Origin: a virus
IMG/VR virus record: IMGVR_UViG_3300025928_000012
Location: 1-50,334 of that record
Length of the DNA: 50,334 bases
Reading direction: 5' to 3' (one strand)
The position numbers and the translations under genes are program-made. The notes beneath the pieces were generated by a model. That model saw only the letters and a program-made list of their open reading frames with translations. It searched no databases and was not told the origin of the DNA. Shown in pieces: positions 2,938 to 48,588 of this stretch. How positions within the stretch are numbered: position 1 is the stretch's first letter; every line of letters starts with the position of its first letter.

Positions 2938-3921
2938 TTACGGCTGGTTAGAGGCCACCGGGCCACCGGAATCCAGGACGGAGCCGGGTGACTCGCTGCC
3001 CGCGGCGTTCTGGGAGGTGAACCGCCACGCGTATGAATGCGGGTGCGGGTACAGCCACAGCTCGAAGTAGCCGAACCACTTGCTGTTCACCTGGTCGTAG
3101 GCCGCGACCTGGTAGGAGTTGACGTCGGCCCGCCCCGGCCCGGTGAGGGTGTGCAGCCCGGACCCGCCTGTCCCGACAACGAACTCGCGTATCCCCGCCG
3201 CGTCAGCCGAGCCGGTCTTGCCGAGCTTGGGAAACCGCTGGTAGGAGTGGCAGTGGCCGTTAAGCACCAGGTCGCAGTGGTTGTCGTACAGCAGGTTCCA
3301 CAGGTCGCCGACTTCGGTGCAGTCCCCGGTGCCCCCGGGGTCGGCAGTTGCGGTGCCGTCGGACCAGCGCGGGTGATGCCAGAAGGCGGCAAGCGGCTTG
3401 CCCGCGTTCGCGGCCAGGTCGGCTGCCAGGGCTGTATAGGTGGTGCTCGGGTTGGCGACCGACCCGATCCACTGGGTGCCGGAGTCCAGGCTGATGATGT
3501 GCCACCCGGCCGGGGTGTCGAAGCTGTAGAAACTCGGCGGGGTGGCGCCGGAATGGGCCTGCGCGCCGAAGTAGGTGTTGTAGGCGGCCAGGTTCGTCGG
3601 GGTGTTGGCCGGGTCGCCGTTCGGGGCGTGATCGTGGTTGCCCGGCGCCGGCTGGCACTTGGTCCCGAAGGTGCTGCCGTAATACCCGTCCCAGATCGTG
3701 TACTCGGCAGTCGTGCCGTCGTTGGTGATGTCACCGGGGAACAGCACCAGGGCCGGTGCCGGGTTCAGCGCCCGGACCTGCGCGGACACCACCTGCGGCG
3801 GGACGTTGGCCCCGGTGGCGGGCTGCATGTCCGCGACCGCGACCAGGTAGTCCGGGGGCTGCGGCGGCGCGGGCAGGCCGCCCGTCACCCGGCTGCGCTT
3901 ATGCGAGACCCAGGCTGTCAC
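2938..3921 (-). CDS. Calcineurin-like metallophosphoesterase
   Basis: A 327-residue protein (GTG start) with the full set of calcineurin-like phosphoesterase motifs: D31-x-Q33 in place of the usual DxH, GD (63-64), GNHD (94-97), HH (182-183) and GHxH (222-225). The layout is closest to purple-acid-phosphatase-like or secreted metallophosphatases that bind two metal ions. There is no clear signal peptide. The gene lies inside the late operon between structural genes, so the enzyme may act on or as part of the virion, for example on phosphorylated sugars or host-envelope phosphoesters. The substrate cannot be read from the sequence. The DxQ variant deserves a check. Confidence 0.8.
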   Translation of the reverse strand: MTAWVSHKRSRVTGGLPAPPQPPDYLVAVADMQPATGANVPPQVVSAQVRALNPAPALVLFPGDITNDGTTAEYTIWDGYYGSTFGTKCQPAPGNHDHAPNGDPANTPTNLAAYNTYFGAQAHSGATPPSFYSFDTPAGWHIISLDSGTQWIGSVANPSTTYTALAADLAANAGKPLAAFWHHPRWSDGTATADPGGTGDCTEVGDLWNLLYDNHCDLVLNGHCHSYQRFPKLGKTGSADAAGIREFVVGTGGSGLHTLTGPGRADVNSYQVAAYDQVNSKWFGYFELWLYPHPHSYAWRFTSQNAAGSESPGSVLDSGGPVASNQP

Positions 3922-3927
3922 GCCGGC

Positions 3928-4437
3928 TTACTCGGCGACCTTGTTCTTGTTCCAGCTCTGCGGTCCCGCTTTACCCTCGGCGTTGAGCTGCTTCATGCGC
4001 ACTGACGAGGCCGCCCTTCGTTCTGGCGTCATGGCCCGGGACAGGGCCACTCGCGTTTCTTCGGTGAAGTCGTACTGCCTGTGACAGGAATGACACATGG
4101 GCACGTAGTCCATCCATATGTCCTTGCCATCTGTGCCGTGGATCTGCGCCCACTCGCGAGCCTGCCTGCTGATTCCGCCCTTGGCACAGAGCGCGCAATC
4201 ATGCTCAGCAGCCTTGCCTCGCTGCCGCCTGACCAGCGCATGCAGGTTCATGTAACTGTCGCGTTCGCCTAGATCGGGGCGGCGGTGATGACCGCAGGTG
4301 CAGTCCGGCGGGCACTTCTTCCCGGTGCGTGCATGGCGTCCGCACGTACAGCCGGGCGGGCACGGGTGACTGCGGCCGGCCCGGTCTTTCCGGTGCAGGC
4401 CGCAGGTGCACTCTGGCGGGCATTTCCCTTTCGTCAT
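3928..4437 (-). CDS. HNH homing endonuclease with three CPPxCTCGxH repeats
   Basis: A 169-residue protein from the ATG; a GTG two codons upstream is possible. The N-terminus carries three near-identical CPPxCTCG(x)H knuckles at about 6-15, 26-35 and 42-51, probably zinc-binding DNA-recognition units. An HNH-type core follows, with C81xxC84 and C115xxC118 pairs and a PMCHSCHRQYD segment. The C-terminus (MTPERRAASS...SWNKNK) resembles a NUMOD3 DNA-binding motif. There is no Shine-Dalgarno sequence; an AT-rich stretch with a TATAGT hexamer lies just upstream, so it may have its own leaderless promoter. It is probably a free-standing homing gene inserted after the 157-residue gene, whose last codons it repeats. 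Confidence 0.75.
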   Translation of the reverse strand: MTKGKCPPECTCGLHRKDRAGRSHPCPPGCTCGRHARTGKKCPPDCTCGHHRRPDLGERDSYMNLHALVRRQRGKAAEHDCALCAKGGISRQAREWAQIHGTDGKDIWMDYVPMCHSCHRQYDFTEETRVALSRAMTPERRAASSVRMKQLNAEGKAGPQSWNKNKVAE

Positions 4438-42802: not shown

Positions 42803-45800
42803 TCACGTCCCGCCGGTCTGCTTCAGGATGCGGCGGGCCTTCCCCGTGTACGCCAGGGCCGAGAACGACCTTTCGAACCAGGCCTGCAGCTCGGCCTGCG
42901 AGCCGACCGGGGCGTTGATGTTCACCGTCACGTTCACCGCCCCACCCCCGCCGCTGCTGCCTCCGCCTCCGGCGGGGATGACCTGCTCGGCGCGGCCGGT
43001 GCCGTTGTACGCCAGGGTCAGGCCCGGCTTCAGCAGGCCGCCCCGGTCATACCAGTTGTAAGCCAGCTCGTGGCCTTCAGCTGCCGCCGGGGATCCGTAG
43101 CGGGACCAGATGTAGGAAAGGCCCCACCGGATCTGCGCCTGGTAGTCGCCCAGGTTGTACGGGTGGCCTTTGCCCAGTGCCTGGGGTATGCCGTAGGCGC
43201 CGCTTGAGGGGTTGACCGCGTAGGAGTTCCAGCCACTGTTGCCGGTAAGGAAGGCCTGGCCGTCCTGCTGCGCCGTCCAGCTGCCCAGCTCCGTCGTGAC
43301 ACACCAGACTGGCTGGCGCTCCAGTACTTCATGCGACTCGAAGCGGTGCACGGCGACATGCGGGTTGCCGAGACCGATGGCCTGGTAACCGCTCCTGGGC
43401 ACGCGCACGTTAGGCCGATGCCCTTCCAGGTACACCGCGAGCTTGATGGCATCGGCCAAGTCGCCATCGTTCTGGAAGACGATGGTGTATCCGCCCTTGG
43501 CGGTTCCCTCCGCGTCGATCATCGCAGCGAGCCAGGCAGCGCGCTGATCCGGTGACATGCGCAGCACCATCTGCTCCGGGCCAGTCTCGTCCAGCCCGGA
43601 ACGCTTCAGCAGATCCCGGACGTAACCGGCCCGCAGCAGGAACACATGCTCGGGACGGTGGCTCTCCGGCCGCCCAGTCCTGGCCGAGACAACCTCGGTG
43701 TGCTCGATATGCGCCAGCAGCGCGCGCAGCCGGGTGATCTGCTCCGGCTTGGACTGATAGATGCGAGCACTGATCTCAGTCTTGCCGCGCCGCTGGATGT
43801 GCCCGTCACCCTGCAGCCACGCCAGGACCGCCGCGTCTTCCGTGCTCAGCCCCGCAATGCCGTCCGTGTCCGCAGGTGCGGCCAGCCTGATCCGGTCACC
43901 GCGCGTCAGCTCTGCGGTCTGCGCGAACCCGGAGTGCTCCTGCACGTAACCGCGGCCATTGTTCTGCCGGTAGTCACTCCACCAGCGGTGCCCGGGAGTG
44001 ACGTCGGCATGCCAGCGCTGGCCGCCGATCCGCCAGACCTCGGCATCGTCGTAGTGAACGACCCGGGTAATGCGAGTCCACTCACTGCGGCCAGTTTCCG
44101 GGTTGTAGCCAACGGTCTCGTCACCCGTGCGCACCTCGTCGTGAGCCAGCCAGCCGCGCCGGGTCAGGATGCGCGTGTCCAGGCTGGTGCACTCCTGGTT
44201 CCACAGCGCCTGCAGCGACGGGAACTGGTTCTGGCCCCACCCGTAGGCGAACAGGATGGACCTGGCGAACGCCTGCGCGACCGCCGCCGACCCGGAATGC
44301 GGGCCGAGGCCGAGCGGCAGGTTGTTGAGCCCGGCCTTCGCGGTCGCCGCGGCCTGCGCGGCGGCTTGCTTCACCGCCGTCTTCAGCTGCCCGATCAGCC
44401 GGACGGCGTAGCTGTTCTCGACCGACCTGCCGAAGCCGTACTCGCTGCCTGCCATCCAGTTTTCCGCGCCGGCGTAGTTGGGCACGTAGCCGCCGGCCGC
44501 GAAACCGGGCAGCTTCCCGCGCAGGTGGTCGACGGCGCCGCCCCGCACCATGCCCGCAGGGACGACCACCTCACCCGGCGTGAGCATGCCGAGCACGCTG
44601 TCTTTCCCGGGCCTGCCGCCGAATACCTTCCCGCCGGCGGCCATGAACTTCAGGCCGCCCTTGACGTCGCTACCCACCCCGGTGGACTCGTTGAAGACAA
44701 TGCTGCCGCTGCCAGCCGCGTGCATCAGCACGTTGACGGTCTTGCCGTGCAGGCTGTCGATAGCCTGCTGCAGTTTAGTAACCGGCGTGGTGTCGGAATG
44801 CGGCTTCAGGATCAGCCTGTTTACGCTGGCTATCTGCGGCGGGGTCAGGCCGATCCTGTGCAGCATCGCATCCACGTGGACCGGGTCCTGGCCGGGCTTC
44901 AGGTTCAGCTTGTTGACGCCGGCAATCTGTCCCGGGGTCAGGCCGATCCTCTTCAGCAGGCTGTCGATACTGGCGGCGTTACTGCCCGGCTTCACTATCA
45001 GCTTGTTGACCGCGAGTATGTCCGCCTGGGTACCGCCCAGCTGGTAGATCAGCGCGTCCACCTTGGCGACATTCGACCCTGGCTTCAGCACGGCCTTGTT
45101 AATCTGGCCGATTGCATCCTGGCTGTAGCCCAGGCTCTTGAGCAGGGCATCCGCGGGGCCGAGGTCTGTTCTCAGCTTCGCTGCCAGATTGGTCCCAGTC
45201 CCGGCGAGCACCGCGCCGAGCGAGGCCGACTCGCCGGAACTGCCGGACTGGCCGGCAGCGCTGGAGCCCTTCACGCCTGAACTGAACGCATTGCTGAACT
45301 TCTGGTAGGCCAGGAAGCCGGCGATCTGGGCGACGGCAGCCAGCCCGATCAGCGTGCCGATAGCGGGCGCGCCCGCCTTCATGGCCACCGCTTCGCTGCC
45401 GCCGACTGCCGCACCGTCGGCTGCCGCGCCGCCAGCCATGGCGGCCCGGATCTCAGCACCGGCAGCGACGCCGCCGCTGACCATGGCAGCGCGGATCTCA
45501 GCGCCCGCGGCTGCGCCGCCGCCCAGGTCTACGATCCCGCCGGTCAGCCACTTGACTGCCGGGCCGATGATCTTCACCCCGACGGAGATGACGCCGAGCT
45601 TGTTCAGGATCAGCAGCGACCCGGCCACCTCCGCCAGCGGCTTCGCCAGCGACGGGGGCAGTTTCGCGACGAACGCGAAGAACCCGGAGATGAGATTCAG
45701 TTCCGTCACGCCGCCCGTGGTGAGGCCCGGCGTCAGGGCCTTCAGCGCTCCCCCGATGTTCTTCAGCAGGGTGCCGACGACCGGGCCGTTAGCGGTGAAC

Positions 45801-46858
45801 CAGGCCATGAACCTGGTGATGTCGTCGCTGGCCTTCTTGCTGGCGGACCATTTCAGCACCGCCGGGCCCAGCTCGGAGATCCACCCGATCGCCTTGTCGA
45901 TCAGCGGATTGAACTGCGGCAGCAGGATCACGAACGACTTGACGAGATCGATGATCGTGTGGCCCGCCGCCCCGGCCGCCGCCGAGCCGGTCCCGGCGAT
46001 GAAATCCCGGAATCCCGTGAACGCGGAGGAATTGACCAGGCCGTCGAACTGGGCGCCGAGACTCCTGATGAACGGGGATACCCCGGCGATGACCGGGCCC
46101 AGCTTGCCGGTCAGGTCGGTGACGGACTTGAGCCACGGCTGCAGCGCCCCCGCCACGACGGGGGTCTCTGCGGCCTTCACCGCATCCCACGAGGCCGCCA
46201 TCGCCCCGATCTGCTTCGACAGGACGATCTGCGCCGGGGACAGGTTCGCGTACGCCTTGGCGATGGCGATCTGCTCGGCCTTGTACGCCACCGCCTTCTT
46301 GGTGCCGCCGGCGATGGCGGCGGCGTAGTTGTTCTGCGCCGTCTCGACCGCTGTGGCCGCGGTCTTCGCGTCGGTCAGGACGGGCTTGGCGACGGCCCCG
46401 AACGCGGCCAGCGCGGCACCCCCGGCCACGAACGCGCCCGACAGCCCCGCCGCCACGCCCGTCACGACCCCGCCCAGCGTGGCGATGGCCGGGGCGAGCG
46501 CCAGCGCAGGGCCCAGCAGCCCCGGGTTGAGCTTCAGGCCGCCCAGCGCCTTGCCCAGCTCCCCGGAATGCTTCGACGAGTCCTGCATCGCGTCGTCCAG
46601 GCGGCGGATCGCGGCGTCCGCCAGGACCGCCTTCGCCGCGGCCCGGTCCTCGGCGTCGCCGGTCTGCCGGAGGGCCGCCGCCAGGATCTTCGACTGCGCC
46701 GCGGTGCGGTCTTCCTTCTGCCCGAGCTCTTTTATTACCTCTTGCAGCACCTTCGCGCCGCGCGCCGCCGCAGCCGCGCTGTCGCCGGTCTTGCGGAAAT
46801 CGCCGGCGAGACGGTCCGCACCGCGGGATATGAAGTCGTAGGTTATGGACTCGGCCAC
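42803..46858 (-). CDS. Tape measure protein with lysozyme domain and intein
   Basis: 1351 residues from a GTG after AGGAG (upstream frame is chaperone shadow). An intein fills residues 890-1207, leaving 1033 residues. N-terminal coiled coils, a membrane-helix region with strongly Ala/Gly segments (around 180-215), and four 31-residue repeats before the C-terminal part. The muralytic domain reads LQALWNQE, then after the intein SGWNSYAVNPSSGAYGIPQA, the Glu-Ser active site of SLT-type transglycosylases. It sets tail length and opens the cell wall at infection, but only after splicing. Confidence 0.92.
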   Translation of the reverse strand: MAESITYDFISRGADRLAGDFRKTGDSAAAAARGAKVLQEVIKELGQKEDRTAAQSKILAAALRQTGDAEDRAAAKAVLADAAIRRLDDAMQDSSKHSGELGKALGGLKLNPGLLGPALALAPAIATLGGVVTGVAAGLSGAFVAGGAALAAFGAVAKPVLTDAKTAATAVETAQNNYAAAIAGGTKKAVAYKAEQIAIAKAYANLSPAQIVLSKQIGAMAASWDAVKAAETPVVAGALQPWLKSVTDLTGKLGPVIAGVSPFIRSLGAQFDGLVNSSAFTGFRDFIAGTGSAAAGAAGHTIIDLVKSFVILLPQFNPLIDKAIGWISELGPAVLKWSASKKASDDITRFMAWFTANGPVVGTLLKNIGGALKALTPGLTTGGVTELNLISGFFAFVAKLPPSLAKPLAEVAGSLLILNKLGVISVGVKIIGPAVKWLTGGIVDLGGGAAAGAEIRAAMVSGGVAAGAEIRAAMAGGAAADGAAVGGSEAVAMKAGAPAIGTLIGLAAVAQIAGFLAYQKFSNAFSSGVKGSSAAGQSGSSGESASLGAVLAGTGTNLAAKLRTDLGPADALLKSLGYSQDAIGQINKAVLKPGSNVAKVDALIYQLGGTQADILAVNKLIVKPGSNAASIDSLLKRIGLTPGQIAGVNKLNLKPGQDPVHVDAMLHRIGLTPPQIASVNRLILKPHSDTTPVTKLQQAIDSLHGKTVNVLMHAAGSGSIVFNESTGVGSDVKGGLKFMAAGGKVFGGRPGKDSVLGMLTPGEVVVPAGMVRGGAVDHLRGKLPGFAAGGYVPNYAGAENWMAGSEYGFGRSVENSYAVRLIGQLKTAVKQAAAQAAATAKAGLNNLPLGLGPHSGSAAVAQAFARSILFAYGWGQNQFPSLQALWNQECTSLDTRILTRRGWLAHDEVRTGDETVGYNPETGRSEWTRITRVVHYDDAEVWRIGGQRWHADVTPGHRWWSDYRQNNGRGYVQEHSGFAQTAELTRGDRIRLAAPADTDGIAGLSTEDAAVLAWLQGDGHIQRRGKTEISARIYQSKPEQITRLRALLAHIEHTEVVSARTGRPESHRPEHVFLLRAGYVRDLLKRSGLDETGPEQMVLRMSPDQRAAWLAAMIDAEGTAKGGYTIVFQNDGDLADAIKLAVYLEGHRPNVRVPRSGYQAIGLGNPHVAVHRFESHEVLERQPVWCVTTELGSWTAQQDGQAFLTGNSGWNSYAVNPSSGAYGIPQALGKGHPYNLGDYQAQIRWGLSYIWSRYGSPAAAEGHELAYNWYDRGGLLKPGLTLAYNGTGRAEQVIPAGGGGSSGGGGAVNVTVNINAPVGSQAELQAWFERSFSALAYTGKARRILKQTGGT
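43238..44191 (-). mobile_element. Intein with LAGLIDADG endonuclease in the tape measure gene
   Basis: 318 residues: block A starts C1-TSLDTRILTRRGW; block B is T65-PGH68; two LAGLIDADG-type helices are at 122-130 (VLAWLQGDG) and 221-229 (LAAMIDAEG); block F is VWCVTTELG (295-303); and the end is GQAFLTGN with Asn318 and Ser+1. The penultimate residue is Gly, not the usual His. It splits the host protein exactly between the catalytic Glu and the following Ser. It should be a full, mobile intein. Confidence 0.93.
44760..45135 (-). repeat. Four 31-residue repeats in the tape measure
   Basis: Coding repeats of 31 residues each. A typical unit reads IGLTPGQIAGVNKLNLKPG followed by QDPVHVDAMLHR; the others start LGYSQDAIGQINKAVLKPG, LGGTQADILAVNKLIVKPG and IGLTPPQIASVNRLILKPH. 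The turn LKPG/LKPH is constant. They probably form a helical solenoid between the coiled-coil and lysozyme parts. Confidence 0.75.
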
Positions 46859-46872
46859 GGGACTCCTATCCG

Positions 46873-47016
46873 CTAACGGTCGGCGATCATCTCCTCGGCG
46901 GCGTCGATCAGCGCTTCGAAGTCCTCGACTTCGAGGAGCCCGATCTCCCAGGGGCGGATGTGGAACTCGCGGGCAAAGAAGGCGAGGTAACGCTGCCTGT
47001 CGTAGGTGAACCAGCC
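46873..47016 (-). CDS. Tail assembly chaperone T-domain (frameshift extension)
   Basis: In the -1 frame relative to the G gene the DNA encodes GWFTYDRQRYLAFFAREF followed by HIRPWEIGLLEVEDFEALID and ends IADR, the classic T-domain of lambda gpG-T-like chaperones. It has no start of its own. Joined at the slippery site it gives a 163-residue G-T protein. Confidence 0.82.
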   Translation of the reverse strand, partial: GWFTYDRQRYLAFFAREFHIRPWEIGLLEVEDFEALIDAAEEMIADR

Positions 47017-47363
47017 GGGCCCGACCCGGCTGGCGTAGGGACCGCAGCGTCATCCTCCGCGTCCGCCGCGGCCTGCGCCATCTCCTCGGCCAGGGCCGAC
47101 TCGGCCATCGAATGGATCATCTCGTCAATGTCGAAATCGATCTTCCCGTCGAGGACGTCCTGGTATGCCGTGTCCACGTTCCGGCCCTCCCGGCGCCAGA
47201 TGAGGCACGCGAGCATGATGAAAGCCCGGGCCGATCCCTCGGCCATGTCAACCTGCCACTGGCCGTAGTTCCGCTTGTAGACGTGCTCGATCCACAGGGC
47301 CTCGTGCGTCGGCGATTTCCGGCCGTCGTATTCGTAGACCTGGCCGCCGATCGATACCTTCAC
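46908..47363 (-). CDS. Tail assembly chaperone G
   Basis: A 151-residue zero-frame product: MKVSIGGQVYEYDGRKSPTH, EHVYKRNYGQWQVDMAEGSA, CLIWRREGRNVDTAYQDVL. The last ~35 residues (Ser/Pro-rich) come from reading the T-domain DNA in another frame. It binds the tape measure during tail assembly. It is directly upstream of the tape measure gene, the invariant place of G/G-T. Confidence 0.85.
   Translation of the reverse strand: MKVSIGGQVYEYDGRKSPTHEALWIEHVYKRNYGQWQVDMAEGSARAFIMLACLIWRREGRNVDTAYQDVLDGKIDFDIDEMIHSMAESALAEEMAQAAADAEDDAAVPTPAGSGPAGSPTTGSVTSPSLPASSTSAPGRSGSSKSRTSKR
47016..47022 (-). other. -1 ribosomal slippery heptamer GGGCCCG
   Basis: On the minus strand G-GGC-CCG fits X-XXY-YYZ, with GGC and CCG as zero-frame codons and GGG and CCC after a one-base slip. 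It lies in the overlap between the G frame and the open T-domain frame. No clear downstream stem was checked by folding. Confidence 0.75.
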
Positions 47364-48046: not shown

Positions 48047-48163
48047 GTGAGGCGGCGGACGTGGAAGCCGCTGATCCGGCAGCGGCTGTGGTTCAACTGG
48101 CGGCCGCGCAGGTCCCTGCCCGGCGAATGGGCCAGGGCGAAACGGAAACGACGGGGCCGCTAG
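48047..48163 (+). CDS. Basic peptide, 38 aa
   Basis: GTG-started frame MRRRTWKPLIRQRLWFNWRP with a very basic, Trp-rich sequence ending RAKRKRRGR. It follows the small membrane gene by a few bases. It may bind nucleic acid or membranes. It could also be an accidental frame. Confidence 0.35.
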   Translation: MRRRTWKPLIRQRLWFNWRPRRSLPGEWARAKRKRRGR

Positions 48164-48588
48164 GTGCCCATGCCGCCCCATGAGGTGTACCTCTGGATTG
48201 CGGACGCAGCCTGCCACGTGGCCTTGAAGTTCACCGGCCCGGCGACGGCGCCGTCGGCGGCGAAGTCGACCAGGATGGTGCCGTACCAGTACGAGTTCGG
48301 GTCGTTGACGGTGTCCCAGTAAAGGTAGAAGTTCCGCGGGAGCCCGTCGGAGGCGGCGACGTAGGTCTGGGATGTGCCCGCGTCCATAAAGCCGCTGAAA
48401 TCGCCGCTGGCATCCGGCAGGCCGCCCACGAAAACCTTGTTCTGGTCTCCGAAGGCCGTGACTTCATCGCGATCGGAGGCCCGGCTGATGGACCAGGCGG
48501 CCTGGAATGGCAGCGGTACCGCGACGGTACCGGTGGTGGCGCCGAGGTAGATCTGGGCGTTGCGCCCGTGACGACGGCTGCTGGGCAT
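48160..48588 (-). CDS. Major tail protein
   Basis: A 142-residue protein: RHGRNAQIYLGATTGTVAVP, then FQAAWSISRASDRDEVTAFG and VGGLPDASGDFSGFMDAGT, then FYLYWDTVNDPNSYWYGTIL. The DASGDFSGFMD strand and the closing PVNFKATWQAASAI match small actinophage tail-tube proteins. It polymerises to the tail tube on the tape measure. Confidence 0.85.
   Translation of the reverse strand: MPSSRRHGRNAQIYLGATTGTVAVPLPFQAAWSISRASDRDEVTAFGDQNKVFVGGLPDASGDFSGFMDAGTSQTYVAASDGLPRNFYLYWDTVNDPNSYWYGTILVDFAADGAVAGPVNFKATWQAASAIQRYTSWGGMGT

Follow-up and report, generated by a model that had tools for sequence, protein, structure and literature searches.

Most of the inteins catalogued so far lie in enzymes of replication, repair, packaging and metabolism, and those described from phages lie in the genes for terminase, helicase, the RDF and other proteins (PMC5050341 among the reports). 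Native inteins are found at a mean distance of 8.3 Å from active-site residues, compared with 21.1 Å for other Cys/Ser/Thr positions, and it has been argued that an intein which blocks the activity of its host protein makes the host dependent on splicing and is thereby protected from loss (PMC3359363). The described inteins closest to the one reported here are the RDF/metallophosphatase intein of cluster A1 mycobacteriophages (Bethlehem gp51; Applejack gp46, 317 aa), which Kelley et al. 2016 assigned to class 1 (PMC5050341), and the class 3 inteins (Bethlehem DnaB, Msm DnaB1 and AceL NrdHF), that class being defined by the positions Trp B12, Cys F4 and Thr G5 (PMC3196547; PMC5050341). In haloarchaeal MCM helicases, inteins occupy four sites, several of them neighbouring within one catalytic domain and sometimes filled together (PMC10643990). 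The tape-measure gene of phage ICP1 is interrupted by a homing-endonuclease gene, in that case with splicing at the RNA level and no intein (PMC10448857).

The window, i.e. the whole stretch of DNA that was analysed, is a virus record of 50,334 bases (IMGVR_UViG_3300025928_000012) from an actinobacterial phage, namely a phage of soil actinobacteria, whose terminase matches those of Arthrobacter phages and other actinophages at only ~31%. Its likely tape measure gene contains a 318-residue intein, located between a Glu and a Ser of a lysozyme/SLT domain (written Glu/Ser below, with the slash marking the insertion point). The reading that we prefer, with a probability of roughly 0.75, is that of a mobile, endonuclease-bearing intein which splices constitutively and does not serve as a switch. 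The RDF intein is homologous to it over the full length (Applejack: BLASTP 2e-11, 23%; HHalign 99.1%), and the two share Cys1, a VWC block F, an LTGN/S ending with Gly before the Asn, and placement at an active-site motif (GNHD/S in the RDF). The RDF intein differs in having Val instead of Trp at B12 and in its host, a metallophosphatase.

The open reading frame that holds the insert in frame (42803-47053, minus strand, 1416 aa) opens, as listed, at 47053, compared with a likely GTG start further downstream (Table 1). The position and length of the gene fit a tape measure protein, a major-tail-protein match lies nearby at 48163-48588, and the C-terminal part of the product matches tape-measure PHROGs. 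Its N-terminal body is not matched by a tape-measure model, and the name is given on the grounds of size, place and the lysozyme domain. Imperfect tandem repeats of 93 bases (31 residues, LTPxQIAxVNKLxLKPG...) are found in the body at 44801-45010. The spliced product is computed to be ~1033 aa and free of cysteine. The nearest relative of the tape measure as a whole (L008, IMGVR_UViG_3300036652_000110; 62% over 824 aa) is intein-free. It carries another SLT subtype, and an exchange of the wall-hydrolase module seems to have taken place just upstream of the intein-bearing domain. GC content was considered as a sign of recent intein arrival and proved uninformative (67.1% in the intein vs. 68.9% in the rest of the gene; GC3 82.7% vs. 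87-89%).

Table 1. Features of the intein-bearing tape measure gene, in window coordinates.
Feature	Position	Strand	Basis
Tape measure protein gene (likely)	42803..46858	(-)	Likely start GTG at 46858 (VAESITYDF)
N-extein half of lysozyme/SLT domain, end ...LQALWNQE	44192..44296	(-)	Alignment with intein-free domains
Codon of conserved, presumed catalytic Glu (intein position -1)	44192..44194	(-)	Invariant in 21/21 aligned domains; aligned to MltC and human lysozyme
C-extein half of lysozyme/SLT domain, SGWNSYAVNPSSGAYGIPQ...WGLSYIWSRYGSP...	43019..43237	(-)	NCBIfam NF052397, E 1e-15; PHROG transglycosylase
Intein with LAGLIDADG homing endonuclease, 318 aa, in frame	43238..44191	(-)	Blocks, alignment, model, Foldseek
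Splicing block A, CTSLDTRILTRRGWL, Cys1	44147..44191	(-)	C1, L9, T10, G13, W14 invariant in 31
Splicing block B region, ..DVTPGHRWWSD..: T65 (B7), H68 (B10), W70 (B12)	43967..44011	(-)	Invariant in 31
Endonuclease motif 1, ..AWLQGDGHI.., acidic D129	43796..43831	(-)	Pfam LAGLIDADG_3, 23.4 bits vs. cut-off 22.5
Endonuclease motif 2, ..WLAAMIDAEG.., acidic E228	43505..43540	(-)	Foldseek match to I-DmoI and intein endonucleases
Splicing block F region, ..PVWCVTTELGSW.., Cys297 (F4)	43274..43315	(-)	W296, C297, T300 invariant in 31
Splicing block G, ..FLTGN: Thr316 (G5), Gly317 (G6), Asn318 (G7), then Ser+1	43238..43258	(-)	

A sequence-only reading of this DNA had placed an intein at 43238-44191, between the catalytic Glu and the following Ser, and both the boundaries and the site were borne out. 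The boundaries are exact to the base: Cys1 (codon 44189-44191) is residue 955 of the reading frame and Asn318 (codon 43238-43240) is residue 1272. The insert starts with CTSLDTRILTRRGWL and ends with FLTGN before SGWN, while intein-free homologues read LWNQESGWN unbroken. Alignment with intein-free homologues, the check proposed by that reading, recovered the homologous Glu-Ser site. When viral contigs were searched with the sequence downstream of the insert, 18 loci were recovered, most of which have LWNQESGWN or a close variant without interruption, and a second scan seeded by the lysozyme domain of the sister allele added further loci. Among the 60 distinct readable domains other than that of the window, 59 are empty and one (L027) is filled, i.e. 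the Glu/Ser site is occupied in ~1 in 60.

L027 is another tape measure, with a 56%-identical intein that is the sister of the window intein (100/97 support), and two other metagenomes contain identical copies of it (L028 and L029, 0 differences). The rest of the L027 tape measure looks unrelated to that of the window. Of the 40 bases that flank the insertion (20 on each side), half (20) are identical in the two, and no long homing recognition sequence shared at the DNA level was seen between them; since the flanks agree at only this level, recent homing between them is not indicated.

In a profile of the intein-free domains, the Glu at position -1 aligns with its counterparts in MltC (Glu-Ser) and human lysozyme (WESG), the matches being weak (E 0.2-0.3) but in register. 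The Glu of WESG in human lysozyme is E35, which is catalytic. The Glu of LWNQE is presumably catalytic as well, and homology gives good support for placing the Glu/Ser junction at the catalytic centre. The domain has the catalytic-type Glu, then Ser, then a G-x-x-Q motif; Pfam SLT matches 9 of 13 relatives, and a model of the intein-free relative L009 has lytic transglycosylases and lysozymes as its top matches, only at E >= 0.1. Left unspliced, such a domain could hardly be active.

The sequence-only reading had named a dead splicing block as a finding that would count against it. All blocks are intact: C1, T65-x-x-H68-x-W70, C297 and T316-G-N318/S are present, and every row of a 31-member alignment, on which the figures for blocks B and F rest, has C1, T65, H68, W70, W296, C297, T300, T316, G317 and N318. 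The structural model (mean pLDDT 95.8) has a HINT fold, its best Foldseek matches being solved inteins with endonucleases, namely: TliVMA (E 1e-16), PI-PfuI and PI-SceI. In both LAGLIDADG motifs (WLQGDG and MIDAEG) the acidic residues are retained, and the endonuclease is apparently intact, with a Pfam match just above the cut-off.

Pfam and NCBIfam scans of the window intein returned no splicing-domain match, and a search of solved structures with its sequence gave weak matches, with the family profile performing better. Of the 31 members of the family alignment, 1 is matched by Pfam Intein_splicing and none by an NCBIfam intein model, and the family is therefore missed by automatic annotation. 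That these models do not reach the window sequence would suit an ordinary nested domain or an assembly artefact. Such a reading is almost certainly wrong in view of the complete set of blocks, the empty-site homologues, the same-site sister allele in three metagenomes and the intein fold; the fold match and the empty-site alignment effectively refute it.

Dead members of the family exist. L007:2710-4080 in Streptomyces massasporeus is a degenerate copy, in a short unrelated reading frame, that no longer has His B10, Cys F4 or the final Asn, and L110 is frameshifted. The window intein could likewise be weak or dead, in which case splicing would be poor, the tail enzyme would be largely lost and the phage would tolerate the loss. 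Tolerance of the intein is plausible, since the wall-hydrolase motif in the tape measure of phage TM4 is dispensable, save for about half of the plating efficiency on stationary cells (PMC1796659). We nevertheless consider a weak or dead intein very unlikely, as the window intein has retained all the residues missing from L007, the frame is intact and the fold is predicted with high confidence.

The closest relatives of the window intein lie in wall-hydrolase domains. Inteins of this family are found at no fewer than eight positions of one lysozyme-like domain, namely Glu/Ser and seven others. Counted from the Glu, the latter are: +11 (L103); +13 (L097 and L104); +21 (L096); +27, after a GIPQ or GLMQ motif (L030, L046, L095, L099, L100 and L113); +63 (the second intein of L096); +71 (L102); and +95 (L031). 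These columns depend on one alignment, of which +71 and +95 lie in a less conserved part. The two inteins of L096 (IMGVR_UViG_3300037258_000024) share one SLT domain of a long tail protein, the first at 3001-4128 and the second further downstream, ~33 residues apart in the spliced protein. Sixteen of the 17 hydrolase-domain inteins are 312-427 aa long; L046:3001-3414 is a 138-aa mini-intein without endonuclease, at GAYGIPQ/SLPASK, which has kept all splicing residues. The spread of insertion sites over one domain resembles that of the haloarchaeal MCM inteins, with at least eight sites in a virion wall-hydrolase domain here as against four in the helicase.

In L034 and the Gordonia phages Twinkle and Mcklovin, a family intein lies at the HxH motif of an M15-like peptidase domain (so named by motif, not by family search) of the tape measure. 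The Twinkle and Mcklovin inteins have all the key residues and, like that of the window, interrupt a tape-measure wall-enzyme domain; they differ from it in sequence (31% identity) and in site (ADH/SDHVHW), and their records carry no intein annotation. As tape-measure inteins of cultured phages (MK878902, 14915-15970; MN428055, 16025-17080), they are suitable for bench work. Ten of the hydrolase-domain hosts were scanned. Upstream of the intein, eight of them match tape-measure PHROGs; for L099 and L100 the only matches are to minor-tail or transglycosylase families. The 17 hydrolase-domain members group together on a tree of 51 inteins, where their distribution takes 3 label changes, compared with 14.5 when labels are shuffled (0 of 500 shuffles as low), it being noted that related rows make clustering easy and that the share of hydrolase-domain members is inflated by two family-gathering searches seeded with such members.

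Sporadic presence, a kept endonuclease and a mix of filled and empty sites are the ordinary marks of homing. In a mixed infection, the LAGLIDADG endonuclease would cut intein-free alleles of the conserved lysozyme-domain DNA, and repair of the cut allele would copy the intein in. The precursor would then self-splice in the cytoplasm, with no signal required, and bring Glu and Ser back together, so that the tail would carry an active wall enzyme. Active-site placement would be what homing into highly conserved codons, together with selection against loss, usually produces, and closeness to the catalytic Glu is to be expected since native inteins generally lie near active sites (PMC3359363). A folded intein in a tape measure would also need to be gone by the time the tail tube closes. 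Against plain homing stands the clustering of the 17 relatives in hydrolase domains, which is more than simple homing into conserved genes predicts and could hint at a benefit.

The sequence-only reading had further suggested that splicing acts as a switch which keeps the enzyme silent during assembly. What stands of this is the position at the catalytic Glu-Ser pair and the probable inactivity of the unspliced domain; the switch itself is unsupported, given the low occupancy of the site, the conserved endonuclease and the relatives elsewhere in the domain. The idea that the Glu/Ser split is a specially selected point was rejected on account of the seven other positions. In general form, a conditional switch would keep the enzyme from acting until splicing is triggered by a cue (redox, temperature or tail assembly), and in its redox form oxidation of the Cys1-Cys297 pair would block splicing. 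These are the only two cysteines of the precursor, both at the splicing centre, and a class 3 DnaB intein is inhibited by oxidation via its block-F cysteine (PMC6195587); the clustering of related inteins in wall-hydrolase domains and the survival of the mini-intein in L046 would also fit. However, the intein is rare and sporadic at its site, and its relatives at other positions indicate that Glu/Ser was not the chosen point. Cys297 is invariant in the DNA polymerase members too and is thus not a tape-measure adaptation. The cytoplasm, moreover, has no wall to cut, so that assembly should need no switch, and a bulky intein lodged inside the tail lumen would get in the way of assembly. We therefore regard a conditional switch as distinctly unlikely. 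It is also unlikely that a phage intein lineage has specialised on tape-measure wall-hydrolase domains, moving among the eight or more positions of the lysozyme-like fold and the M15-like peptidase domain, and that its two obligatory cysteines (Cys1 and the block-F Cys) could make splicing redox-sensitive, such that the wall enzyme would be matured only under set conditions.

The intein does end in TGN, with Gly in place of the usual penultimate His, as the sequence-only reading had noted, but the expectation that this Gly slows C-terminal cleavage is contradicted by the RDF intein, in which native Gly316 splices well and it is Gly316His that leads to a build-up of precursor (PMC5050341, Kelley et al. 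2016). The Applejack metallophosphatase intein is taken to correspond to the intein of that study by host protein, length and Gly316, and as a homologue of the window intein it indicates that the expectation fails for this family. All 17 members in wall-enzyme domains end with T-G-N, or T-S-N in Twinkle.

The same 17 inteins carry both the Cys1 of class 1 and the Trp-Cys-Thr motif of class 3; in the window these are Cys1 plus Trp B12 (W70), Cys F4 (C297) and Thr G5 (T316), with Ser at +1. Cys1 is present in 63 of 63 family members, and no row of the 31-row alignment, DNA polymerase members included, departs from either set. Class 3 inteins share Trp B12, Cys F4, Thr G5, His B10 and Ser/Thr at +1 with this family, but the classical ones lack Cys1, and the solved AceL NrdHF intein aligns weakly to the family profile (E 9e-5). 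N-terminal cleavage could proceed from Cys1 (the class 1 route) or from Cys297 with His68 and Thr316 (the class 3 route), the sequence being compatible with both. Trp-Cys-Thr inteins with Cys1 or Ser1 were reportedly discussed by Tori and Perler in 2011. The pairing offers natural material for testing how class 1 and class 3 splicing relate.

The open-licence literature yielded no description of inteins in the wall-hydrolase domains of tape measures, and these domains are apparently an unreported niche for this family, in which the wall enzyme of a structural virion protein is a repeated host. As standard intein models miss this family, unannotated inteins may be present in phage tape measures and tail lysins, and this would bear on tail-length estimates and lysin engineering.

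More distant inteins were found in 17 of 395 actinobacterial genomes (L138-L153 and L155), at GWADIGY/SFMACAHG. Judging by motif, their host resembles a PGRP-type N-acetylmuramoyl-L-alanine amidase, again a wall enzyme split at a conserved motif. Finally, L044 (IMGVR_UViG_3300037258_000549) has two inteins in series, ~80 residues apart, in an apparent portal protein.
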